Below, in pieces: positions 5,449 to 23,807 of a stretch of 23,966 nucleotides of DNA. Source of the DNA: a virus; the IMG/VR virus record IMGVR_UViG_3300010399_000414, positions 1 through 23,966 of that record; one strand, given 5' to 3'. A program made the translations under genes and the position numbers. How positions within the stretch are numbered: the stretch's first letter is position 1; the number at the start of each line of letters is the position of its first letter. The notes under the pieces are model-generated. The model did no database searches and had not been told where the DNA came from. It saw only the letters and a program-made list of their open reading frames with translations.

Positions 5449-5904
5449 ATGGCTCGCGACCCTGTAAAGGTGAAGGCCGCCAAGGCCCGATATGCCGCCA
5501 GTGAGAAGGGGCAGGCCGCGGCACTGCGATACAGGACGAGCGAGAAGGGGCGCGCGGCCCAGGCCCGCGCCGACGCCAAGCCCAATATCGTGGCTTCCCG
5601 AAGGCGTCGGCGTGGGGTCACGAATGCATCGGGGGAGCGCCGCACAGGCCCGTGTGACCTGTGCGGCCGTCACATTGACGGCCTGCACCAGGACCACGAC
5701 CACGTGACCGGGATGGCGCGTGGCTGGCTGTGTAATGGATGCAACCTAGGACTGGGCCAGTTGGGCGACACAGTCGAAAGTCTCCAGCGCGCCGTCGACT
5801 ATCTCACCGTCGCCCGGACCGCGCACGAAGCTTCTTGTTCCGCATCACCTCAGCCACACGCTTTGCATACACTTGCTCCGGAGTCTCCTCCGGTTGCCAA
5901 GTAG
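5449..5904 (+). CDS. recombination endonuclease VII-like HNH nuclease
   Basis: 151 residues. The nuclease core is CDLC (C69, C72), LHQDHDH (D82, H83, H85) and LCNGC (C95, C98), followed by N99LGLGQLGD. This is the zinc-binding beta-beta-alpha arrangement of the endonuclease VII family, which cuts branched DNA. Two near-copies of RYxxSEKGxAA (from residues 14 and 27) precede it, a basic repeat common before phage HNH domains. The final ~34 residues lie antisense to the 3' end of the large terminase gene (101-base overlap) and look low-complexity, so they may be a passive extension. It probably works in junction resolution or genome clearing before packaging. Confidence 0.85.
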   Translation: MARDPVKVKAAKARYAASEKGQAAALRYRTSEKGRAAQARADAKPNIVASRRRRRGVTNASGERRTGPCDLCGRHIDGLHQDHDHVTGMARGWLCNGCNLGLGQLGDTVESLQRAVDYLTVARTAHEASCSASPQPHALHTLAPESPPVAK

Positions 5905-7168
5905 TCATGTGGGAGAAGCCGCCCCCTTGTAGTGAATACTGCAAGGCATCCGTCGCTTCATCGACGTAGCCCTCGCGGTGGTCGTCTTTCTCCAGGTTCC
6001 ACGGGAGTCCGCGCCATTCCTCCAGCAGCTGCCCGCACCGCCCTATGGACCCCCGTAGCGTGCGCGCATCGAGCATGGTCCGGACCTGTTCAATTCTAAG
6101 ACGCCGCGCCCGCTTGTCCGCGGGCTGACACGGCAACCCGTACGACCGAGCCAGGGTTTCGCACAGTGTCCGCCCACCACCCCCCGCGGCGTCCACGAAC
6201 ATTTCCGTGACGTGGTGCTGGGAGCGCATCCGCTCTGCGATGGCGGCCGCACGGGGCAGTGTGAGTTCCGCCTCGCGGTATACCTCCAGCACGTGGGCTC
6301 CGGGGTTGGGATACCGCGACCGCACCACAGCAAACCCCATACCATCTGACCACCCCAAATCGATACCCATCGACGTGTAGTTCGTGGACGGGGGCGGGGG
6401 TTCGTAGAACTCCCCGTCGAGGTCCAGCGTCGGCCGGTAGATGAGAATCCCCTCCTCCTGGACCCGGTGGCCGAGGTACTCCCGCCGGAACGTGGCGTTA
6501 TCGGCCCGCCCCGCGAACCGTTTCGCCAGGGCCTCGGCGATGAACTCCGACCCGGGCTTCTCCAGGTGGGGGTTCTCCGCGGCTGTCCAGCAGAAGTGTG
6601 CCCCCGCCTCGGCGCACGCCGCCATCTCGTCCTCGTAGAACCCCACGCCGGTGTCGGCGGGGGTCCCCAGTAAACACAGGTCCCCGTCCGTGTCCGCGAG
6701 GGTGGGTTCGATGACGTCCACCACCAGGTACTCCAGGAGCGGGTCGGCGATTTGGCCGCACTCGTCCACGCCGACGCGGTGGATTTTCGGGACGCCGCGG
6801 ACGAGGTTAGCCGACCGCCGGTCCTTACAGCCCATGTAGTACAATGTGAACCCGTTGGGCCAGGTCCACGTGGCGTCTGTGCCATTGTAGACCGCTCCCC
6901 ACGAGAACCGGTCGTTGAACTCTCGCAGGGCGTCCCAGCCGATTTTGATGGCCGACTCCTGGGACAGCGCGAGGAATATCGACGACTGGTTGGGGCGCCG
7001 CTTCCACTGCTCGACCAGCCACAACGTCACGGAGAACGACTTCCCCGCCCGGCGGCCGGAACAATTCGTCCGTCGTTTCGCACAAGAGGAGACGAATTGT
7101 AACTCCGGCGGGGTGAGGGCGCGGCGCTCCTCGGGGATTTTGAGGAGGCGCGTCAACGGCTGTAGCAC
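5804..7168 (-). CDS. terL: terminase large subunit (ATPase and nuclease)
   Basis: 454 residues from a GTG at 7168. ATPase domain: Walker A SGRRAGKS (K43), Walker B RVGVDE and coupling motif LLGTP. Nuclease domain: SMGIDLGWSDG, FVDAAGGGG and YVDEATDALQYS, each supplying an acidic metal ligand. It powers DNA translocation into the prohead and cuts the concatemer. The GTG is chosen because the upstream extension runs through the divergent portal gene, and TATACT lies six bases before it. The gene is alone on its strand, divergent from the portal and convergent with the endonuclease VII-like gene, which is unusual because terL normally precedes portal on the same strand. Confidence 0.93.
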   Translation of the reverse strand: MLQPLTRLLKIPEERRALTPPELQFVSSCAKRRTNCSGRRAGKSFSVTLWLVEQWKRRPNQSSIFLALSQESAIKIGWDALREFNDRFSWGAVYNGTDATWTWPNGFTLYYMGCKDRRSANLVRGVPKIHRVGVDECGQIADPLLEYLVVDVIEPTLADTDGDLCLLGTPADTGVGFYEDEMAACAEAGAHFCWTAAENPHLEKPGSEFIAEALAKRFAGRADNATFRREYLGHRVQEEGILIYRPTLDLDGEFYEPPPPSTNYTSMGIDLGWSDGMGFAVVRSRYPNPGAHVLEVYREAELTLPRAAAIAERMRSQHHVTEMFVDAAGGGGRTLCETLARSYGLPCQPADKRARRLRIEQVRTMLDARTLRGSIGRCGQLLEEWRGLPWNLEKDDHREGYVDEATDALQYSLQGGGFSHMTTWQPEETPEQVYAKRVAEVMRNKKLRARSGRR

Positions 7169-7174
7169 GGGTTC

Positions 7175-7180
7175 AGTATA
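7175..7180 (-). promoter_or_regulatory. candidate -10 box for leaderless terL mRNA
   Basis: On the minus strand TATACT ends six bases before the terL GTG, which would place transcription start on or beside the start codon. There is no Shine-Dalgarno sequence and no clear -35 box. The intergenic space shared with the portal gene is only 49 bases, so both divergent promoters must be compact. Confidence 0.4.
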
Positions 7181-7197
7181 GCGCGTTCGGCCGGCCG

Positions 7198-7220
7198 GTG
7201 CTAGACTAGGGGACACTATG
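7198..7220 (+). promoter_or_regulatory. shared start element copy 1 (portal operon)
   Basis: GTGCTAGACTAGG (7198-7210) is followed by GACAC and the portal ATG. The same 13 bases, GACAC and ATG occur at the head of the other late operon (copy 2). The element contains an extended -10 (TGC-TAGACT) ending ten bases before ATG, and CTAG-A-CTAG forms an odd palindrome. AGGGG could also act as a ribosome site. Either a phage-specific late promoter with a very short leader or an operator would fit. Confidence 0.6.
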
Positions 7221-9203
7221 ACTGGAGACCTGCCCTGGTGGGAGATGGACGCGCGGGCCGCCGCGCTGGCCATCGTGGAACTGGAGGACCAATACTCCCG
7301 GGATTTCATGTGGCGCCGCATCCGCGCCCGGCGCCTGGCCGGCGGATACCATGGCCGGGACCTGGCCACGCCGTTCGCTCGGGACGCCCGGTTCTCGTGG
7401 CGGGACGAGTCGGCCGACCCGGACCGCGAGACCATCACGCTCATCCGGAACAAGTTCTACGAATACGTCGAGACCCACGTGGGCAAAATCGGCGCGGTCG
7501 ACGCGCCCCAGCCCGCCCTCATGGTCACCGATGGCGACTGGGAGCTGAAGCGCAAAGTGGAGCTGTCCTCCCGGCTGCTCCTGGCCGAGTACGGTATGCG
7601 CCAGGGCCAGTTCGCGAACCTGCACGCACTGTGCCACCAGGGTCTCCGCATCGCCGACGCGGCCACTGGGTCAGTCGCCGCGAAGGTGTACCCCTGGCCG
7701 GAGGAGGACCGCGTGGTCGTCGAGCTGCACGACACGCTGGACATGTTCCTCGACGACACAGAGCTGTCCTACGGGGTCCCGCGCACGTTCGGTGAGGTCA
7801 CGTGGTGGCCACCGTATCGGCTGGTCCGCTCGTACCCGTCCCACCGCGAGGCCATCGTCAACGCCGTCGAGGCGCGCACCGACCGGGGCGGGCTGGTGTT
7901 CTCGGGCCGCACGGCACGCGCCGAGCTGGTCCCGATATGGGAAGCCTGGGCCGTCAAAATCGGTGAGGAGGCCGGGCGCCACATCGTCACGCTCCGCGAC
8001 GGGACCGTGCTACTGGACGAGGAATGGGACTCCGACGAGCCGCCCTTCGCGTTCCTGCACACGAACCCTAACCTCACGGGATTCTGGGCGAATCCGATGA
8101 TGGACATCGTGTACGAGGAAATCCTGAAGGCCAACGAAATCATCCAGCGTTGCGACGAAGCCCACACCCACACGGCCAAGCAGGTACACTACGTGGTGGA
8201 GTCCGACATCGTCGACATCAACGAAGTACTCGACGTCGACACCATCACGGTGGTCCGGCTGAAAAACGCGGCCGCCCGCGTGGCCGTCGAGAACCCCGCG
8301 CCGTTCAACCGCATCGACCTGGAGCTGCTCCACGAGCACGAGTCCGGCATCGCCCGCGCGCTCGGCATCGATGAGATGCACTCGGCCGCCAAGTCCGAGC
8401 CGGGCCTCCCGTCCGGCGTGGCCCAGCGCGAAGCCGGCGCCCGATTCGACAACCGGCACGCCACCACGCACCGTGCGTACGTTCAGTGGGTCGCCGTCGA
8501 CATCGGCCGGCACGTGCTCCGGGCCCAGCGGAAGCTGTACGAGCAGAACACCGCGTTCAAGCGCCGGTGGACGGGGGATTTCTTCTCCCGGGACATCGAA
8601 GCGAAGGACGTTGTGGACCTGGACTTGAACGCCCTGCACGTGCAGGTCAAGCCGACCGGGGAGAAAAAGAACACCCCGGAGGAGCGCGTCCAGTACGCCG
8701 AGGAGCTGCTGGAAAAGGGCGCCATCCCGTTCGAGGCGTACCTCATGGCCATCCAGACCTACGACACCCCCGGCGAAACGAAAGTCATCAAGACCCAGCG
8801 GCGCTGGGTCGCGTGGCAGATGGACCGCTGGTTGATGGCGAAGGACGCCGAGCTGAACGAGCCGGACTTCTACCAGGGGCCCCGGCCGTGGATGCGCAAA
8901 ATCGATGCGATGGTCCAGGTCGTCGACGCCCTGATGGAAGCGGAGCTGTCCGGCGTCCCCGTCGAGCGGCTCCAGTACTTCCTCGATTTCATTGCGGAGT
9001 TGTCCGAGGCCATGTCCGCGGAAGTCAACCCGCCCCAGGCCGCCGCGCCGCCACTCGGTGCTCCGGCGCCGATGCAGGGCTCGGCCGGCATGAACGTCGG
9101 CCTCGGTGGCTCCGTCGGTGGGCCGCCGGGCGCCGCGCCGATGGCCGCGCCACCTGGCGCCCCCGTCGCCGGGCCGCCCCCAGCTGGGCCGTCCGGCCTG
9201 TAA
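7218..9203 (+). CDS. portal protein (head-tail connector)
   Basis: 661 residues. Order, length and features fit a phage portal: an alpha/beta N-terminal half, then the long helical segment NPMMDIVYEEILKANEII...CDEAHTHTA, a HESGIARALGIDEM segment with SGVAQREAGARF, and a Pro/Ala/Gly-rich tail from about residue 605. Portals form the dodecameric ring at one capsid vertex, docking the terminase and later the tail. The ATG at 7218 has AGGGG at 7208-7212. A scaffold-like gene follows 56 bases downstream, which supports the call. Portals diverge strongly, so the assignment rests on size, context and the central helical region. Confidence 0.8.
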   Translation: MTGDLPWWEMDARAAALAIVELEDQYSRDFMWRRIRARRLAGGYHGRDLATPFARDARFSWRDESADPDRETITLIRNKFYEYVETHVGKIGAVDAPQPALMVTDGDWELKRKVELSSRLLLAEYGMRQGQFANLHALCHQGLRIADAATGSVAAKVYPWPEEDRVVVELHDTLDMFLDDTELSYGVPRTFGEVTWWPPYRLVRSYPSHREAIVNAVEARTDRGGLVFSGRTARAELVPIWEAWAVKIGEEAGRHIVTLRDGTVLLDEEWDSDEPPFAFLHTNPNLTGFWANPMMDIVYEEILKANEIIQRCDEAHTHTAKQVHYVVESDIVDINEVLDVDTITVVRLKNAAARVAVENPAPFNRIDLELLHEHESGIARALGIDEMHSAAKSEPGLPSGVAQREAGARFDNRHATTHRAYVQWVAVDIGRHVLRAQRKLYEQNTAFKRRWTGDFFSRDIEAKDVVDLDLNALHVQVKPTGEKKNTPEERVQYAEELLEKGAIPFEAYLMAIQTYDTPGETKVIKTQRRWVAWQMDRWLMAKDAELNEPDFYQGPRPWMRKIDAMVQVVDALMEAELSGVPVERLQYFLDFIAELSEAMSAEVNPPQAAAPPLGAPAPMQGSAGMNVGLGGSVGGPPGAAPMAAPPGAPVAGPPPAGPSGL

Positions 9204-9259: not shown

Positions 9260-10249
9260 TTGTCAGACGCCAAGATTTCGTTCTCCGACTTCATCGCCAA
9301 GCTCCCCGACGCCCCGTCGGCCGACGCCCCCCGCCACACTCCCGACCCGGAGGCGCCGGCAGACGAAGCCGAGGCCCCTTTAGCCACGGAGGCGGCCGAG
9401 CCGGAGGCGCCCCGCAAGCCCCGCGTTCGACGGGCGTCCGACGACCACGACGCGCCCCAGCCGACGAGTGCGAAAACCCCTTCACCTGGCGCCCCGCCGG
9501 GCGAGGTAACCCCCGAGGTACTTCGGGCGGCACTAGCGGCCGGTGACCTCGACACGCTCGGGGAACTCCTAGGCGAGGACCCCGCGCTGTACGACGAGCG
9601 CACCCCCAAGTGGGCCGCGCGTCAGCGCAAGGAGCACAAGCTCAAGTCCGAGCGCGATTCGGTCGTCCAGAAGGCCGAAGCGGTCGTCGGGCGTTGGGCC
9701 CCGGTGCTGAACCTCGTGGAACGCATCGACGCGGGCGAAGTACAACTCGTGCCGGAATTGCTCCGAACGCTGACGAATCGCGACCCAGACGGGCTGTGGA
9801 TGGCCGCGGTACGTGCGCGGGCCTCGACGGACCCCCGCATCCCGGCGCTGACCGAGACCACCCAGCGCCAGGCGGCGCGGGTCGCGGAGCTAGAAGCCGA
9901 GCGGGTCGCCCGAGTCGACGCGGCGTTCTACGAAACCCTTCGCGACGAAGTGGCGACGGACTCCGTCGTCCGTAAAATCGACGGGTGGGAGGCCAAGGTG
10001 GCCGAGGTGTTGCGGGAGAGTGTCGACCCTGACCTGGGCGAACCGAAGCTGTCCGTCCGACAGGCGGCCGACCGCGTGGTCCGCCGGGAGCGGGAGGAGT
10101 TCGACCGGCGGGCCGCCGTGTTCGGGGAGGCGCCCTCGACGAAGAAAAGGACCCGCGCGGCCACCCCGGAGCGTGCATCCGGCGCGTCGGGTGCTAAGGT
10201 ACGAAAGCTCTCGCGTGAGGAATGGCTCGCGGCGAGGAACAACGGGTAG
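9260..10249 (+). CDS. scaffold-like capsid assembly protein
   Basis: 329 residues, highly charged and mostly helical. The N-terminal ~85 residues are Ala/Pro/Glu-rich and probably disordered. A long helical and coiled-coil region follows (KEHKLKSERDSVVQKAEAVV; QAARVAELEAERVARVDAAFYETL). The C-terminus is basic and short-helical (KVRKLSREEWLAARNNG), like the capsid-binding tail of phage scaffolds. Location directly after the portal supports the role: it would guide capsid assembly and then leave. Start is a TTG with AGGA five bases upstream. No sequence signature proves a scaffold. No protease is fused. Confidence 0.62.
   Translation: MSDAKISFSDFIAKLPDAPSADAPRHTPDPEAPADEAEAPLATEAAEPEAPRKPRVRRASDDHDAPQPTSAKTPSPGAPPGEVTPEVLRAALAAGDLDTLGELLGEDPALYDERTPKWAARQRKEHKLKSERDSVVQKAEAVVGRWAPVLNLVERIDAGEVQLVPELLRTLTNRDPDGLWMAAVRARASTDPRIPALTETTQRQAARVAELEAERVARVDAAFYETLRDEVATDSVVRKIDGWEAKVAEVLRESVDPDLGEPKLSVRQAADRVVRREREEFDRRAAVFGEAPSTKKRTRAATPERASGASGAKVRKLSREEWLAARNNG
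10192..10200 (+). promoter_or_regulatory. candidate intragenic extended -10 promoter
   Basis: TGCTAAGGT fits TGN-TANNNT and ends 57 bases before the ATG of the GroES-like gene, inside the 3' end of the scaffold gene. It could boost expression of the downstream gene. There is no -35 box and the evidence is pattern only. Confidence 0.25.
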
Positions 10250-10257
10250 GATTGCTA

Positions 10258-10998
10258 ATGCGCGCATACTGCAAAAACGGCCACGTGGTCGCGAAGGAAA
10301 CCAATCTCTCCGCGGCCAACGTGACCGTGGACTTCCACGGCCAGGCGGTCGGCATCACGGCGGGGTTCGCCACCGGCGGGGGAATCATCCTCCTGGACGA
10401 CAAGCTCGCCACGTCCGACACGTCCCACGAGATGGAAATCGTGGAGTCACGGTCACCCGACTTGAAGCCCGGCGACCGCGTCGTGGTGTACATCGGTGGG
10501 GACGACGGGGGCATTTCCGCGTCGGGTATCTCCGCGTTCCTGCCCTACAACGGGGTGGAGTCCGCCATCGTGCCGGATGCGTTCTTGTGGGCCCGCGTGA
10601 AGGACGGGGAACTCATCCCCCGCCTCGGCGTCGTCCTGGTCGAGCGCGACGACGCGGCCATGCAGCGCTATGCGTTCAACTCCTCCCCCATCCTGGCGCC
10701 CGACGGGGTGCTCGGGGTGGACCTCATGCGCCACGGCGTCGCGGCCGCCAACCGGCAGGACCCGGGCGACGCCGGGCACCGCACGCGGGACTCGGTGACG
10801 TTGCAATACGCGCGGGTCGTGCGTACGGGGCCGGACGTTCGGGACACGGAAATCGTCCCGGGCGCGGTCGTGGCCTTTAGCCCGAGCTTTATGTGCACCG
10901 CCCTCGTACGAAAGACTCGGTTGCCGTCCGGTGACTACGTCACGAAGTACTACGCCCTGGTCGCATCGAAGGAGATTTACTTTGTTGCCTACAACTGA
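10258..10998 (+). CDS. tandem GroES-like protein (putative phage co-chaperonin)
   Basis: 246 residues that read as two GroES-type repeats. Repeat 1 (about 1-117): VVAKET for the first strand, G40GGIILLDD at 40-48 matching the GroEL-binding mobile loop (GGIIL), MEIVESRSPDLKPGDRVVVY at 59-78 matching the GxVxxVG...VKxGDxVxF segment, and a closing strand AIVPDAFLWARV. Repeat 2 (about 119-246): PRLGVVLVERDDA, YARVVRTGP, EIVPGAVVAFSP at 198-209 and a closing strand YYALVASKEIYFVAYN. Its loop (SPILAPDGVL) is poorly conserved. GroES-like phage proteins (T4 gp31) help fold capsid protein, and the place after a scaffold gene fits. Fused double GroES units are known from plant plastids (Cpn20). The start has AGGA at 10248-10251. 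It could instead be a decoration protein with a similar fold. Confidence 0.55.
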   Translation: MRAYCKNGHVVAKETNLSAANVTVDFHGQAVGITAGFATGGGIILLDDKLATSDTSHEMEIVESRSPDLKPGDRVVVYIGGDDGGISASGISAFLPYNGVESAIVPDAFLWARVKDGELIPRLGVVLVERDDAAMQRYAFNSSPILAPDGVLGVDLMRHGVAAANRQDPGDAGHRTRDSVTLQYARVVRTGPDVRDTEIVPGAVVAFSPSFMCTALVRKTRLPSGDYVTKYYALVASKEIYFVAYN

Positions 10999-11515
10999 TA
11001 CGTTCCGCGCGTTTGCCAAAATCCCCCGACTGTACTCGCAGTGTCGCATCACCGAGAAAATCGATGGCACGAATGCGTGCATCGTGGTCAGCCCGGAGGG
11101 TGTGGTTAGCGCCCAATCCCGTACCCGGGTCATCACGCCCGGGTCGGACAACTACGGGTTCGCTCGGTGGGTGGCGCAGAACGCCGTCCAGCTAGCGCAG
11201 CTCGGCCCCGGATACCACTTCGGCGAGTGGTGGGGCGCTGGCATTCAACGCCGGTACGGGCTGGCGGAGAAGCGGTTCTCCGCGTTCTGGGGGCCGGGAT
11301 TGCCCGGCCTGGTCGGCCAGGTGCCCGTCATGTACGAGGGCGAGTTCTCCGACGTTGTGCTTCGGGCGTGCCTGCACGAGTTGGCGCAGAATGGGTCCGT
11401 CGCGTGCCCGGGGTTCGACCGCCCCGAGGGCGTGGTTGTATCGTGGGCGTACGGCGGCTCGTACAAGGTCATCCTGGCCGGCCACGCCGAGAAACGTGCC
11501 GATGTCCTCGGCTGA
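10982..11515 (+). CDS. small RNA ligase-family nucleotidyltransferase
   Basis: 177 residues with the covalent nucleotidyltransferase motifs: motif I EKIDGTN (adenylated K26), a YHFGEWWG motif III-like segment, PEGVVV (motif IV) and YKVI (motif V). The pattern is closer to phage RNA ligases of the Rnl2/RNA_ligase type than to DNA ligases. It contains little beyond the adenylation domain, so partner recognition must be minimal. Phage RNA ligases commonly repair tRNA cut by host defence nucleases. No polynucleotide kinase-phosphatase is seen in the window. The TTG start has AAGGAG at 10969-10974, seven bases upstream, and overlaps the GroES-like gene by 17 bases. Confidence 0.75.
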   Translation: MLPTTDTFRAFAKIPRLYSQCRITEKIDGTNACIVVSPEGVVSAQSRTRVITPGSDNYGFARWVAQNAVQLAQLGPGYHFGEWWGAGIQRRYGLAEKRFSAFWGPGLPGLVGQVPVMYEGEFSDVVLRACLHELAQNGSVACPGFDRPEGVVVSWAYGGSYKVILAGHAEKRADVLG

Positions 11516-12002
11516 CTCCGCCCTCGCCCCGCCGGGCCATGAACTGACCCCCGACTTGGCCGCCCAGCTGATAGCCGCGGCCAAGTCGGGGTTGTTCAAG
11601 GAGGCGTGCGCCCGGTGCGTGGGCGTGTCCGAGGATACCCTGGACATGTGGTTGCGGATGGGGCTATCCCCCGGCGCCACGAACCCCTATCGCGACTTCG
11701 CACGGGTGTTCGTAGCCCAAGAGGAGGCCCAACAGATACCCCACATCAACGCCATCAAGTCGGCCGCCGCGGTCGACTGGCGTGCTAGTATCGCGTGGCT
11801 CCAGCTACGCCATCCGGATGCGTGGGGCCCCCGCGCGACGCGGAACAACTCGGCGGCCAGCCTCCGCCCGACGGAGGATGACTCCGTGGCCGAGGCAGCG
11901 ATGGTCCGTCAGCTCGTCCAGTCGAACCCGGCGGTGCTGGAGCGCATTCTGGTGGAGGCGGGTTGGACCCCGCCTCCGACCCCGTCAACCGACCCGAGGT
12001 AG
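11502..12002 (+). CDS. terS: terminase small subunit-like DNA-binding protein
   Basis: 166 residues. A helix-turn-helix lies at about residues 31-52 (LFKEACARCVGVSEDTLDMWL). The next segment, ending in NAIKSAAAVDWRASIAWLQLRHPDAWG, is typical of small terminase proteins that recognise packaging sites. The C-terminal part is acidic and helical and may contact TerL. The ATG lies in the last codons of the RNA ligase gene (14-base overlap). Its 3' end overlaps the minus-strand 1421-residue gene by 18 bases. It sits 4.3 kb from terL and on the other strand, which is uncommon. It could alternatively be a phage regulator. Confidence 0.68.
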   Translation: MSSADSALAPPGHELTPDLAAQLIAAAKSGLFKEACARCVGVSEDTLDMWLRMGLSPGATNPYRDFARVFVAQEEAQQIPHINAIKSAAAVDWRASIAWLQLRHPDAWGPRATRNNSAASLRPTEDDSVAEAAMVRQLVQSNPAVLERILVEAGWTPPPTPSTDPR

Positions 12003-15000
12003 CCCCGCGGGCGCGGCCGACGCCGCGGCCACGTGTGACACGTTGCCGCTCGACGTCGGGCCCCCGCCGGGCTTCGTCGGTACGGCCTGCTCGTAGGCGT
12101 AGGCCGTCATAGCCGCCACGGTGGACGACATGGCGGGGTCCGCGAACGACCCGTCCCCGCCGAACAGCCGCCCGTACGACACGCGCGACTGGATGCTGGT
12201 GGGGGGCCCTTCGTCCCGGACCGTGAGGTAGGCCGCCACGCGGATTTCGGCCAGGAGGTCCGGGTACAACGCCTCGGTGGTCTCCATCAGTTCCACCCCC
12301 ACGTGCCCCTGGGCCGCGGCGTTGGCCCACGCCTCCTTCGGTCGGAGCGCGGCGTCCTCGTACCGTGCGTACTTCGCGATGGCCTCGGCCGACACGGGGA
12401 TGTCCCGCATCGAAATCGAGTTCTTCTTGGTGGCGTTGGGGAGGCGTTCTTTCAGGAACGCAGCCGCGGCGAACACCCCGCCGTGGGCCTTGGGCTGGAC
12501 CTCGGGCGGGACGTCCCGGAGTCCCTCCGCCACCCGGTCGACCAGCTCCTGGGGGTTCTCGCCCCAGGACTGAAACTCGGCTTGACGTTTAGCCAGGTCC
12601 GACCGGCTGTAGACCGCACGCGCAGCGAGCCGCGTGGCCAGCCGCCCCACCGTCGGGGAGAACAGCCGCCGGGCCACGTCCGCCACGAGGCGCCCGCGGG
12701 CCTGCTTGAACAGGCTGGCCGCACCGACGAATCCCATCCCCACACCACCCGCGCCGGCGGTACCACCGTCAGGTTTCTCCGCAGAATCGAGCGCCGCCGC
12801 GCCGATGGCGGGGATGGCTAGGTAACCCACGTCCTTCAGCCCGCCCGCGACGGTGGCGGGGATTTCCTGCATCGTGAACGTGAAGTTCCCCGTGTCGGGG
12901 TTGACGTACCGGCCGGTGACCTTGACCCGGGTCCCGGGCGTCAGGACCATTTCCATTTCGGCCGGGTTGACCCCGATGAGCGCCCCCGCGGAGTCCACCT
13001 TCGTGAACCGTAGTTCGTGCGGCCCGAAGTCCGTATCCGGATAGTACGAGGTTGAGATGTGGTTCGGGACTACGTACTCGTCTTTCGTGAGCAGTTCCGC
13101 CAGCCCCGAGTCCTCTAGGTCCACGTACCGGTACAAGTCCCCGTGCTTCGTGGGGTTCATGACGGTGAGTTTGTCCATCGCCGACTCGAACGACGCGGCG
13201 TTGCTGGGGTCGGTGGGCTCCTTGAACTCCGACACCAGGCCCGTACGCTGCTCGTACTTGATGGAGTGCGACCCGCCGACCCATTCGTTGATGGCGGCCT
13301 GCTCGGGCTCGTCCAGCTTCCGGGCGGCTTCGCGAGTGACTTCGAACAGCTTCTTGACGCCGGGCAGTTGCGGGGACTCGGCCATTCGGGCACTGTCCGT
13401 CAGGTGCCCAAAATAGTGCGTAGTGGTCTGGGGCGGAGGCGGGGGCAGCGCCTCGATAGCCTGCTTGACGATGGCCTTCGCCTCGGCCCGGCCTTCCTCG
13501 GTCAGCGCGAACTTCGCGCCGAGACGCATCGACGCCCCCAGCTTCCCCCGCTTCGTCAGGGCCATCAGCCCGAGCCCTAGCCCGGCCGACGCCCCGGCCA
13601 CGCCGTCTTCGCCGTCGGCCGCCGCGGCCGACGCACCAGCACCCAGCGTGATGAGCCCGGCGGCCTTCAGGGTGTCGGCGTTGCGGCGCAGGAAGTCCCC
13701 CAAAAGGGAACCATCGGGAGCCTTTTGTCCCGTGGCGTTCAGTCCGTCGACCACGTGGGCGAACTCACCCTCCGTGAGGGCCTGCATCCGCTTCGCCTCG
13801 GCGGACCGTGCGGCCTCGCCCGGCTGGACATGGCCTTCGAAGTACGCCATCCCCTCGGTTCGGTACGGGGCTGGGTGGGTGGGCGCCATCGCCTCGCCCG
13901 CGAGCGGGACCTCCGAGCCTTCACGCATCGACGGGAGCGCGGACTCGCCGGCCAGCTCCGATTCGAGCTTCGACGGCGGGGCCATCGGCTCCCACCCGCC
14001 GGCCGCGCCCCGTGCGGGGGTGTTGCCCGGCTCGGGCAACGGCCGGGCAGAGTCCGGTGACCACACCCCGTACTGCTCGGGGGCCCGGTGCGGGTCCCAC
14101 GCCGCGGCGCCCTGGTGGTACGCGCCGCCGGCCTCGGGCCGCTCGGTCGCTGTGCGGGCCAGCCCGCTCGCGTCGGTGGGACGCTCATCGGGGAATCCCC
14201 CACCGCCGGGCTCACGCGGGGGCGGCTCGGCGCCGACCGAAATCGGGCGCTGTTGGGGCGTGATGGCTTCCATTCCCGCGGGCCGGCGGGGGGTCTCCTG
14301 ACGTCCGACCTGGCCTGGGCCGGGGAACGGCCCCGCCGGGGCCTCCGGGGGCGCGGCCACACCAACGGCGCGCTGGGGCTGGCCCGCGATGGGGCCGGCC
14401 TCCCCGGGCGGCCGTAGGGACTCCGCCTTCGGGAACGGCGCGTCCATGATGTCGTCCGTGAGCCGGTCGGTGAGGCCCTCCGTCACGTCCTTGCCCGCAG
14501 CGGCGGGAAGGGCGTCCTTGGCGAGGAGTTCCGCCATCGAATGCAGCTCCCCCTTGAACAGCCCCAGCTTGGCCGCGGCCTGACCGAACCAGTGCCCCAT
14601 TCGTGCCCCGCGGAAGGCCCCAGCACCGACCGCGCCCCCCATGGGCCCGGCAGCCGCCAGCCCCAACCCCGCCGCCACGGCGGTGCCAGCCGCGTCGGCT
14701 ACGGTACTACGGGCGGCTGTACGCTCGGCCGCCGCGTTGATGAACGTGGAGTTCGCCATGTTCTTTCGGAGGCGGCGTACCGATTCGAGCGCCTCCCGGG
14801 CCGCCTTCGGGGCGTCGCGCTCGCCGGCTCGGGCGATAGCTTCCGCACCGTCGAGGTACTGGGTGAACAATTCCCGCGCCCGGTGTGTATCCGGGCTGGT
14901 CCCACCCAGTTGGGTGAGGAATTTACGCATTTTGCTGGGTTCACCTCGGTACGTCGTGAACCCCTGGGCGTCCTTGCCCGTGGCGAAGTGCAGGTCGGCC

Positions 15001-16250
15001 AGCACGGTCTTGCGGGCCGGGAACCATTTCTCGTGAAACGGGACGTTGTACTCGCGCTGCATCCGGGCCGCGGCCTCACCCCACGCATCCTCGCGCAGTA
15101 GCGCCGTGCGGGTGGCTTCCTCGGCCGCATCGATGGACGCTAGACCTTCGCGGGACAGCCACGCGGACCCCGGGTTCGTGTCGTACGCCTGGTGCAGGTC
15201 CTGGCGGTATTCCTGGAGCGCCTGGCGGTTTTCGTCTAGGATGCGCCACAGCTTCTTTCCTTTAGGCGCGGCCTCCAGCGCAGCGATGCGCTCGTCGAGC
15301 TGCTTGGCCAGGCGCTTGGCCGGGCCGCCGCCCGCGGACTCCAGCTCGTCGGTCAACGCGGTCCGGAGCCGCTGTAGTCCCTCTACCGCCCCGACGTTGA
15401 TTTCATGCTGTACGGCCGGATGGTCCACGACCGACGCCATGATGCGGGCGCGCTTCTTATCCTGGCGGCCCACCTCCGCCGTGGCGGTTTCCAGCGTGTC
15501 CAGGTCCTTCGCGCCGAGGTCCGCGAGCTGGTCGTGGTACACGTCGGCGTGCTGGGCGGTGCGGTAATCCCCCACCCACCCGCCCTTCGACAGCGTCCGC
15601 TCGGCGTCGGCCGCGACGGCGTCGCGTGCGGCTCGCGTGATGAGATTCCGGGCGCCGCCCAGGGTTTTCGAAATGGTCCACGCCCCGCCTCGGCCCATGA
15701 CTTCCGCGGCAACACCGGCCAGGGCCGCGTCGGTGAACGAGAAGTTCTCTCCGGCCTCGTGTGACTGCTCGGCCTCGATTTGGGCCCCGCCGACGGCGGC
15801 GTTGATACCGTAATCCGCCGCGACCGCGCCGGCTCGCGTAGCCAGTGACGCACCAGCCGCACCAGCGCGGATAGCCGACCCGGCCACACCACCGAGTACC
15901 ATCGCGGGGGCCTGACCTAGTACACTGGCACCCATGGCCGCGTACGGGTGTTCGGCCGTGTACCGGGCCGCGGTCGCCCCCGACCGCGCGTCACGCTCGG
16001 CCAGACCGAACGTCGCGCCGGAGACCGCCTTCGCCGTGAACTCAGTAACCGGGTCGTACCCGGTTTTCGTGTCCGTCGCCAGGCCGGTCGGCGCCCCGGC
16101 GGGGCGGGCCTCGACTTCAGACGCCTGGGCCTGGCGGACCTGTTCGGGGGTTAGGGATTGGTACCCCGCGTTCGCCGCGCCTTGGGCGTCGGCTTCGTCG
16201 AACACGACGACTTCGCCGGTGGTCGGGTCTTTTAGGTATAGGTCAGCCAT
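11985..16250 (-). CDS. giant internal virion/ejection protein with ADP-ribosyltransferase domain
   Basis: 1421 residues, last gene of the minus-strand operon, starting at an ATG overlapping the previous stop (TAATG). The N-terminus (LKDPTTGEVVVFDEADAQGAANAGY) resembles the opening of other large phage internal proteins. Gly/Ala-rich hydrophobic stretches at about 104-155 and 517-545 could insert in membranes. About 610-810 is Pro/Gly-rich and disordered. About 940-1135 matches the ADP-ribosyltransferase fold: HGDLYRYV with R1041, STS at 1066-1068 and E1098-x-E1100 in AEMEMVLTPGTRVKV. The last ~260 residues are helical and unrecognised. Placement after a transglycosylase-bearing protein suggests ejection into the host with the DNA, where the domain could modify a host protein. 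The role as an internal protein is inference; the R/STS/ExE pattern is visible. Confidence 0.7.
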   Translation of the reverse strand: MADLYLKDPTTGEVVVFDEADAQGAANAGYQSLTPEQVRQAQASEVEARPAGAPTGLATDTKTGYDPVTEFTAKAVSGATFGLAERDARSGATAARYTAEHPYAAMGASVLGQAPAMVLGGVAGSAIRAGAAGASLATRAGAVAADYGINAAVGGAQIEAEQSHEAGENFSFTDAALAGVAAEVMGRGGAWTISKTLGGARNLITRAARDAVAADAERTLSKGGWVGDYRTAQHADVYHDQLADLGAKDLDTLETATAEVGRQDKKRARIMASVVDHPAVQHEINVGAVEGLQRLRTALTDELESAGGGPAKRLAKQLDERIAALEAAPKGKKLWRILDENRQALQEYRQDLHQAYDTNPGSAWLSREGLASIDAAEEATRTALLREDAWGEAAARMQREYNVPFHEKWFPARKTVLADLHFATGKDAQGFTTYRGEPSKMRKFLTQLGGTSPDTHRARELFTQYLDGAEAIARAGERDAPKAAREALESVRRLRKNMANSTFINAAAERTAARSTVADAAGTAVAAGLGLAAAGPMGGAVGAGAFRGARMGHWFGQAAAKLGLFKGELHSMAELLAKDALPAAAGKDVTEGLTDRLTDDIMDAPFPKAESLRPPGEAGPIAGQPQRAVGVAAPPEAPAGPFPGPGQVGRQETPRRPAGMEAITPQQRPISVGAEPPPREPGGGGFPDERPTDASGLARTATERPEAGGAYHQGAAAWDPHRAPEQYGVWSPDSARPLPEPGNTPARGAAGGWEPMAPPSKLESELAGESALPSMREGSEVPLAGEAMAPTHPAPYRTEGMAYFEGHVQPGEAARSAEAKRMQALTEGEFAHVVDGLNATGQKAPDGSLLGDFLRRNADTLKAAGLITLGAGASAAAADGEDGVAGASAGLGLGLMALTKRGKLGASMRLGAKFALTEEGRAEAKAIVKQAIEALPPPPPQTTTHYFGHLTDSARMAESPQLPGVKKLFEVTREAARKLDEPEQAAINEWVGGSHSIKYEQRTGLVSEFKEPTDPSNAASFESAMDKLTVMNPTKHGDLYRYVDLEDSGLAELLTKDEYVVPNHISTSYYPDTDFGPHELRFTKVDSAGALIGVNPAEMEMVLTPGTRVKVTGRYVNPDTGNFTFTMQEIPATVAGGLKDVGYLAIPAIGAAALDSAEKPDGGTAGAGGVGMGFVGAASLFKQARGRLVADVARRLFSPTVGRLATRLAARAVYSRSDLAKRQAEFQSWGENPQELVDRVAEGLRDVPPEVQPKAHGGVFAAAAFLKERLPNATKKNSISMRDIPVSAEAIAKYARYEDAALRPKEAWANAAAQGHVGVELMETTEALYPDLLAEIRVAAYLTVRDEGPPTSIQSRVSYGRLFGGDGSFADPAMSSTVAAMTAYAYEQAVPTKPGGGPTSSGNVSHVAAASAAPAGLPRVG

Positions 16251-23065: not shown

Positions 23066-23287
23066 TTAGGGCGCCCCCGTCACCAGGATTTTGACCGCCA
23101 CGGCCAGCACGGACCCCACGATGGTGGTCCACCCACCGGCCTTGACCCACTTGGGGGTCTGGTTGGACTGGATTTGGAGCAGGATGCGCTCGACGTTACT
23201 AAGGCGGTCGTTTAGGGACATCAGCGTTACTTTGGGGATGAGGGCGTAGCGTCCGGGGTCACGGGCGCTGCGGTCAGGTGGGGTCAT
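23066..23287 (-). CDS. small coiled-coil membrane protein, holin-like
   Basis: 73 residues. A short amphipathic coiled coil (LNDRLSNVERILLQIQSNQ, residues 25-43) is followed by one membrane span (about 51-69, GWTTIVGSVLAVAVKILV). This resembles XhlA-type lysis proteins or class III-like holins, which help holes form in the inner membrane at the end of infection. The ATG at 23287 is chosen over an internal ATG at 23221 because GGAGG lies five bases upstream. It ends one base before the next gene's GTG. No endolysin gene lies beside it, so a structural membrane role is also possible. Confidence 0.6.
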   Translation of the reverse strand: MTPPDRSARDPGRYALIPKVTLMSLNDRLSNVERILLQIQSNQTPKWVKAGGWTTIVGSVLAVAVKILVTGAP

Positions 23288-23807
23288 GGGAGCCTCCAGA
23301 GATGCCGAAGGCCCGGAATGCGGGCGCTTCGACGCAATCGACGAATTGAACATTGTGGATTTCCAGGCCCCACGCCTTCGCGGCGGTGACGACCTTGCGG
23401 CGGACCTTCTTTAGCACCGTGCCGTCGAACACCTCGGCGGCCGTGGCGGACATCACCGCGGACCCGAGCTGTCCCGCGGCGACGTCTTGGATGTTGTTGT
23501 TGGCGTCGTAGACCTTGAACGCGAACGTGCGCGGGTCCACGACGGCGTGGGACACCATCAGGCGCACGACCAGGGTCACGCCGTCGGACGTCCGGAGCGA
23601 CTGGGCGGGAAGCACGTCGGCCCACACCCGCACGTCGGCCTTCACGGCGTCCTCCACGAACGGCCACATCAGGTTGAACCCAGGCTTTAGGTCACGGACG
23701 GGGTGCCCGAACCGGATTATGACCCCGGAGTGTTCCAACCCGCACACACACCAGAACTTGAACCAGTGGATGACCGAAATCAGGACGTCTATGAGCTTGT
23801 CAAACAT
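23274..23807 (-). CDS. SPFH/band-7 (prohibitin-stomatin-HflK/C-like) membrane protein
   Basis: 177 residues. An N-terminal hydrophobic anchor at about 5-22 (LIDVLISVIHWFKFWCVC) precedes a clear SPFH domain: GVIIRFGHPVRDLKPGFNLMWPF, then DVRVWADVLPAQSLRTSDGVTLVVRLMVSHAVVD, and a helical half with AKAWGLEIHNVQFVD. These proteins form large membrane cages or microdomains. Bacterial HflK/C cage the FtsH protease. The long C-terminal coiled coil of host members is missing; the protein ends just after the domain. It is the first gene of the late minus-strand operon and overlaps the holin-like gene by 14 bases, so it may organise the membrane for lysis or modulate a host protease. That role is inference. 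Confidence 0.82.
   Translation of the reverse strand: MFDKLIDVLISVIHWFKFWCVCGLEHSGVIIRFGHPVRDLKPGFNLMWPFVEDAVKADVRVWADVLPAQSLRTSDGVTLVVRLMVSHAVVDPRTFAFKVYDANNNIQDVAAGQLGSAVMSATAAEVFDGTVLKKVRRKVVTAAKAWGLEIHNVQFVDCVEAPAFRAFGISGGSHDPT

Follow-up and report, generated by a model that had tools for sequence, protein, structure and literature searches.

The locus at 10258-10998 raises the question of whether a gene of a soil-type phage, in what a first-pass annotation had called a capsid-gene position, codes for two fused domains of the GroES type, and of what a protein built in this way would do for the virus. The window, meaning the whole stretch of DNA analyzed here, is the entire virus record of 23,966 bases; this record is classed as linear and may therefore be a fragment.

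The open reading frame and its parts

The ORF check of the sequence gave an open frame of 246 codons followed by a stop on the plus strand. An in-frame ATG at 10222 would lengthen the protein by 12 residues and is disfavored, because the starts of the homologues coincide with the Met of 10258 or lie a few residues away, with only L032, the most distant one, being longer by nine residues. A GGGTAGGA stretch lies directly 5' of the Met at 10258. The gene and its predicted parts are as follows.

10258..10998, plus strand: putative tandem GroES-like co-chaperonin gene, 246 aa and stop (open frame; ten-member family; both halves match a GroES profile; structure match to Cpn20)
10258..10608, plus strand: domain 1, about residues 1-117, GroES-like barrel (hhalign and VIA alignments)
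10306..10407, plus strand: mobile-loop position of domain 1, residues 17-50, pLDDT <50 (model confidence, motif, length)
10378-10392, plus strand: GGIIL, residues 41-45, in the loop of domain 1
10447..10467, plus strand: shortened roof segment of domain 1, residues 64-70 (length comparison with GroES)
10609..10995, plus strand: domain 2, about residues 118-246, GroES-like barrel (hhalign and 1p3h match)
10678..10794, plus strand: mobile-loop position of domain 2, residues 141-179, nearly all with pLDDT <50 (model confidence, P148, length)
10690-10701, plus strand: I145-L146-A147-P148 in the loop of domain 2
10828..10860, plus strand: shortened roof segment of domain 2, residues 191-201 (length comparison with GroES)

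Sequence evidence for two GroES-like domains

In single-sequence searches, the 246-aa protein belonged to no family of Pfam, PHROG or NCBIfam and had no PDB match of note, and tblastn with three family members gave no match among 50,697 phage records. Relatives were gathered in successive scans of viral contigs, the query being first the protein, next its alignment and finally the portal encoded in the same genome; they share 28-74% identity with the protein, and the family alignment includes ten distinct members, one of them cut by the end of its contig. PF00166 (Cpn10) matched none of the ten up to an E of 10, so that its curated cut-off was reached by no member. Single sequences miss PF00166, and the kinship to Cpn10 becomes visible only when the alignment of the family itself is used as a profile.

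The reference alignment of GroES was composed of 12 proteins, namely that of E. coli, two from PDB entries and nine from phages. Compared with it by hhalign, the N half (residues 1-118) gave P values of 3.2e-5 in local and 4.7e-6 in global mode, and the C half (residues 112-246) gave 1.7e-6 and 3.2e-7, respectively, the alignment running end to end with each half; the hhalign probabilities were 71-90%, from alignments that are shallow. Control pieces of the portal and of the small terminase subunit (TerS) gave P >0.1 against GroES, and the scores of reversed alignments were at noise level. In local mode, the best of 250 column shuffles per half scored 21.5 against the real 33.8 for the N half and 18.4 against 41.0 for the C half. 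In global mode, one of the N-half shuffles scored 127.5, an implausible value that is taken here for a program artifact, and the next best scored 12.8 against the real 32.2. The two halves had no match to each other in hhalign, so the tandem reading rests on the match of each half to GroES. The two rounds of a GroES pattern that had been read from the letters are borne out by these profile matches, and the motifs quoted for them were found at the places given. It is therefore very probable that the open reading frame codes for two GroES-like (Cpn10) domains in tandem.

Predicted structure

The AlphaFold model is of moderate confidence (mean pLDDT 67, pTM 0.67, 80 residues <50) and consists of two beta-rich halves; where the mobile loop is expected, both have a long segment of low confidence (residues 17-50 and 145-179). 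Its best PDB match in VIA-align was 7ekq_R (Z 11.9, rmsd 6.1, 164 residues over 1-245, 16% identity), given in the PDB table as a Cpn20 co-chaperonin subunit, which is the tandem co-chaperonin CPN20 of Chlamydomonas. Rows 2 to 16 of the same list were all Cpn10, GroES or gp31 (15 of 15, Z 6.3-9.2). Within them, domain 1 was aligned to the GroES of H. thermophilus over residues 2-114 (Z 7.5) and to GroES over residues 3-113 (Z 7.0), and domain 2 to 1p3h (Z 9.2, rmsd 2.7, 75 residues aligned). Both domains thus correspond to a beta barrel of the GroES type, by their matches to Cpn10 structures as well as by hhalign. The resemblance to plastid Cpn20 mentioned in the first-pass annotation extends over both domains in the match to 7ekq_R.

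The top match in Foldseek against the PDB was T4 gp31, with an E of only 3.2e-3. Against BFVD, only four viral matches were below 1e-3; they cover 246-256 columns in proteins of 183-304 residues and include a protein of Cellulophaga phage phi18:3 annotated as chaperonin cpn10 (S0A356, E 8e-6). That phage co-chaperonins are known as single-domain proteins only, as had been assumed, does not hold in view of these models, since phi18:3 gp096 and the three others align with almost the full length of the tandem model.

Loops and roof segments

The mobile loop of GroES docks on GroEL through a hydrophobic tripeptide. Loop 1 of the family has [GS]-G-[IL]-x-L in nine of the ten members and S-G-L-I-A in L032; those nine thus carry, within a putative flexible loop, a motif of the GroEL-binding G-[IL]-x-[LI] type. 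Loop 2, which in the window reads S-S-P-I-L-A-P-D, has a mostly hydrophobic stretch followed by P148, which is invariant (10/10 members). There is no GG ahead of this stretch, making the binding of loop 2 to GroEL less certain than that of loop 1. The description of the second loop as degenerate had to be given up: it is longer and different but conserved, with its hydrophobic stretch and invariant proline, in a domain with a dN/dS close to that of domain 1.

The loop stretches are of 30-48 aa in loop 1 and 42-52 aa in loop 2, compared with 21-23 in GroES. The roof segments have 7 aa in domain 1 of all members and 9-14 aa in domain 2 of the complete members, compared with 15 in most GroES.

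Family, gene neighborhood and selection

The gene is present in all distinct relatives whose record reaches the place (10/10). In the relatives examined, the scaffold-like gene is followed by the co-chaperonin gene, and the small-terminase gene comes next wherever the contig continues. In the window, the neighbors are the following.

7218..9203, plus strand: portal protein gene, upstream neighbor (weak SU10-portal match, PF23899, E 0.0016, under the curated cut-off)
9260..10249, plus strand: scaffold-like gene, directly upstream (assigned by position, size and composition; order conserved in relatives)
11499..12002, plus strand: small terminase gene, downstream (phrog_4102 terminase small subunit, E 2.5e-14)

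The portal shares 49-76% identity with those of the relatives, and a search with it gave no match in bacterial or archaeal genomes. The scaffold-like gene had no family match of note in Pfam, PHROG or NCBIfam. Pairwise dN/dS in the co-chaperonin family is about 0.2-0.5; computed separately for each domain against L024, it is about 0.2 in domain 1 and about 0.2 in domain 2, which indicates that both halves are under similar purifying selection.

An RNA ligase-like ORF at 10985-11515 (plus strand) lies between the co-chaperonin and small-terminase genes of the window and matches PF09414 and just the N-terminal third of phrog_548 (E 1.6e-24); its absence from all relatives compared suggests that it was inserted recently and may be truncated. 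Two relatives have a small Lys-rich gene of phrog_2423 between the scaffold-like and co-chaperonin genes (L002:9798-9998, E 3e-16; L005:9762-10001, E 2e-19), for which there is no room at that place in the window. An HNH-endonuclease-like ORF at 5449-5904 (plus strand) adjoins the large terminase gene (5804-7453), which is on the minus strand and flanked by plus-strand genes. The minus strand also encodes, at 11985-16250, a probable internal virion protein of 1421 aa with no Pfam match, in which HISTSYYP recalls the STS motif of ADP-ribosyltransferases, a lead only. In the tail-gene cluster, a Band_7/SPFH (stomatin-type) protein, of a kind uncommon in phages, is encoded at 23277-23807 on the minus strand (PF01145, E 2.8e-19), and G001 has a similar-looking ORF (L015:1455-1988). 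Additionally, proteins in which a similar N-terminal region is followed by low-complexity sequence with much Ala, Tyr and Asp were seen at L014:6172-6723, L016:1-397 and 1838-2416, and L017:1029-1373, with several copies of such proteins in one relative, G004.

The probable capsid gene

As to the capsid-gene position, one part of the description stands, as the gene follows a scaffold-like gene and precedes TerS; the other does not, as the probable capsid gene is found in a different cluster, on the opposite strand and outside the window. This is a conserved gene for a 447-aa protein in the opposite-strand tail-gene cluster of six records, with five distinct versions that share 59-84% identity with the first among them. 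Its size, conservation and gene order suggest that the 447-aa protein is the probable major capsid protein. It had no profile match in the PDB and no kinship to the head proteins of SU10 or N4, and its AlphaFold model has a mean pLDDT of 36. A capsid identity was also considered for the 246-aa protein since its gene follows the scaffold-like gene, and was dropped on the GroES fold and on the existence of this other conserved candidate; the 246-aa protein has no fold of a capsid type and is not the sole candidate for a major capsid or decoration protein.

Proposed function

Here it is proposed that the gene encodes a phage co-chaperonin of two fused GroES domains, a likely reading in which a lid for host GroEL is the likeliest role. 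Having two joined copies of the domain that forms the GroES lid, the protein probably caps host GroEL. No Cpn60 gene was found in eight records, and no Pfam-detectable Cpn10 in eight records either, so the chaperonin partner would be the GroEL of the host. The tandem chains would be made along with the assembly proteins, several chains could form a ring and its loops could attach to host GroEL at the apical domains; the ring would then cap GroEL, and phage proteins may fold in a chamber with a wide, roof-poor opening. The likeliest client would be a component of the virion, for instance the probable capsid protein. The larger folding chamber that had been envisaged from the letters is compatible with the long loops and short roofs.

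Paired domains on a seven-fold GroEL would either leave one site or one domain unused or have a single-domain subunit added, as in plastid/apicoplast Cpn20; since the search of the relatives yielded no separate Cpn10, any added subunit would be host GroES. A mixed ring of three two-domain phage chains and one host GroES, which would place seven domains on host GroEL, is a tentative and rather doubtful proposal. If true, the virus would refit the lid of its host, which would then have a wide opening with little roof and would dock through loops of two kinds. In the 7ekq structure, two CPN20 chains are found together with single chains of CPN11 and CPN23, equal to seven domains. Plastid lids in their native form are probably mixtures of seven domains, and concatemers of six and eight domains work with GroEL (PMC5780408); also, the apicoplast cpn20 of P. 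falciparum substitutes for GroES in E. coli (PMC3542282). The P. falciparum protein and the six- and eight-domain concatemers indicate that even-numbered lids can work on seven-fold chaperonins.

Alternative readings

Domains of the GroES fold are also found in proteins that do not bind chaperonins. One way to read the gene is as that of a protein for the virion or its assembly, be it a decoration protein, a head-tail adaptor or a packaging accessory, which has taken over a GroES barrel and lost GroEL binding, given its place between the scaffold-like and small-terminase genes, where head-completion or decoration genes may sit, and a divergence too great for Pfam Cpn10. This is unlikely, as even the distant members keep the loop 1 motif of the GroEL-contact type and the proline of loop 2, the long low-confidence loops sit where co-chaperonins require loops, and no known decoration or adaptor protein ranks above the co-chaperonins in PDB or BFVD.

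A lid or inhibitor of another ring, for example host ClpP, or a protein by which GroEL is blocked instead of used, is brought to mind by the source of the best structural match, as 7ekq_R is part of a chloroplast ClpP complex with CPN11, CPN20 and CPN23; however, loop 1 resembles a GroEL-binding motif, and the known phage homologues of GroES, such as gp31, serve folding (PMC6318259), leaving this reading very improbable.

Hardly credible is a mere alcohol dehydrogenase (ADH)-type GroES-like domain without chaperonin link, for although one member matches ADH_N (E 0.0062), one matches the phage ADH family phrog_2640 (E 0.005) and ADH domains come after the co-chaperonins in the structural list, the ADH_N alignment covers a short stretch only (P 9e-4 and 2e-3) and fails in global mode, whereas GroES aligns end to end, and there is no catalytic or Rossmann part, so that this candidate was dropped as largely refuted.

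The fused co-chaperonin, the reading preferred here, provides a likely function for a family that has no name in Pfam, PHROGs or NCBIfam.

Comparison with known co-chaperonins

T4 gp31 is a single-domain protein that forms heptamers, and T4 and later phages have shown that an altered GroES lid can change which proteins GroEL folds. Longer loops and the lack of a roof in gp31 are thought to allow the folding of the large T4 capsid protein (PMC6318259). Similarly to gp31, the window protein has a phage-coded GroES fold with longer mobile loops and short roofs; unlike the single-domain gp31, it is fused, with two domains.

Single-domain GroES is widespread in phages: 89 phage records match E. coli GroES, and the co-chaperonin is a core gene in pelagiphages of the HTVC023P type (PMC9599517). 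Xanthomonas phage PBR31 is the closer parallel in setting, as its orf017 encodes a Cpn10 domain and lies, in a small genome, beside genes for terminase, portal and scaffold; orf017 differs in having one domain, ordinary roof and loop length and a clear Pfam match.

Tandem GroES-like proteins are already present in phage databases, for example gp096 of Cellulophaga phage phi18:3 (YP_008241289.1, 200 aa, annotated as co-chaperonin GroES), whose model matches that of the window protein nearly end to end. The gp096 gene is directly upstream of terminase and portal, and the Pfam Cpn10 match of gp096 is in its second half only. No match at the sequence level was found between the window family and gp096, and the fusion may thus have arisen more than once. 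The same Cellulophaga phage has a single-domain GroES (gp080, L044:31108-31362) as well as the 200-aa GroES of two-domain size (L044:41458-42060), which suggests mixed seven-domain lids. A literature search, mostly without subscription journals, found no description of a tandem GroES in phages.

To our knowledge, chloroplasts and their relatives are the only well-known source of comparable fused lids. Like the plastid and apicoplast Cpn20 proteins (7ekq_R, P. falciparum cpn20), the window protein joins two complete Cpn10-like domains in a single chain, and both domains have a position for a mobile loop; unlike these, it is viral, has longer loops and shortened roofs and adjoins packaging genes, and no Cpn10 or Cpn60 gene was found to accompany it. 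A fused, roof-poor lid in small-genome phages offers a natural test of even-numbered lids on a seven-fold chaperonin, and the family also tests whether the fused form originated independently in viruses and in plastids.
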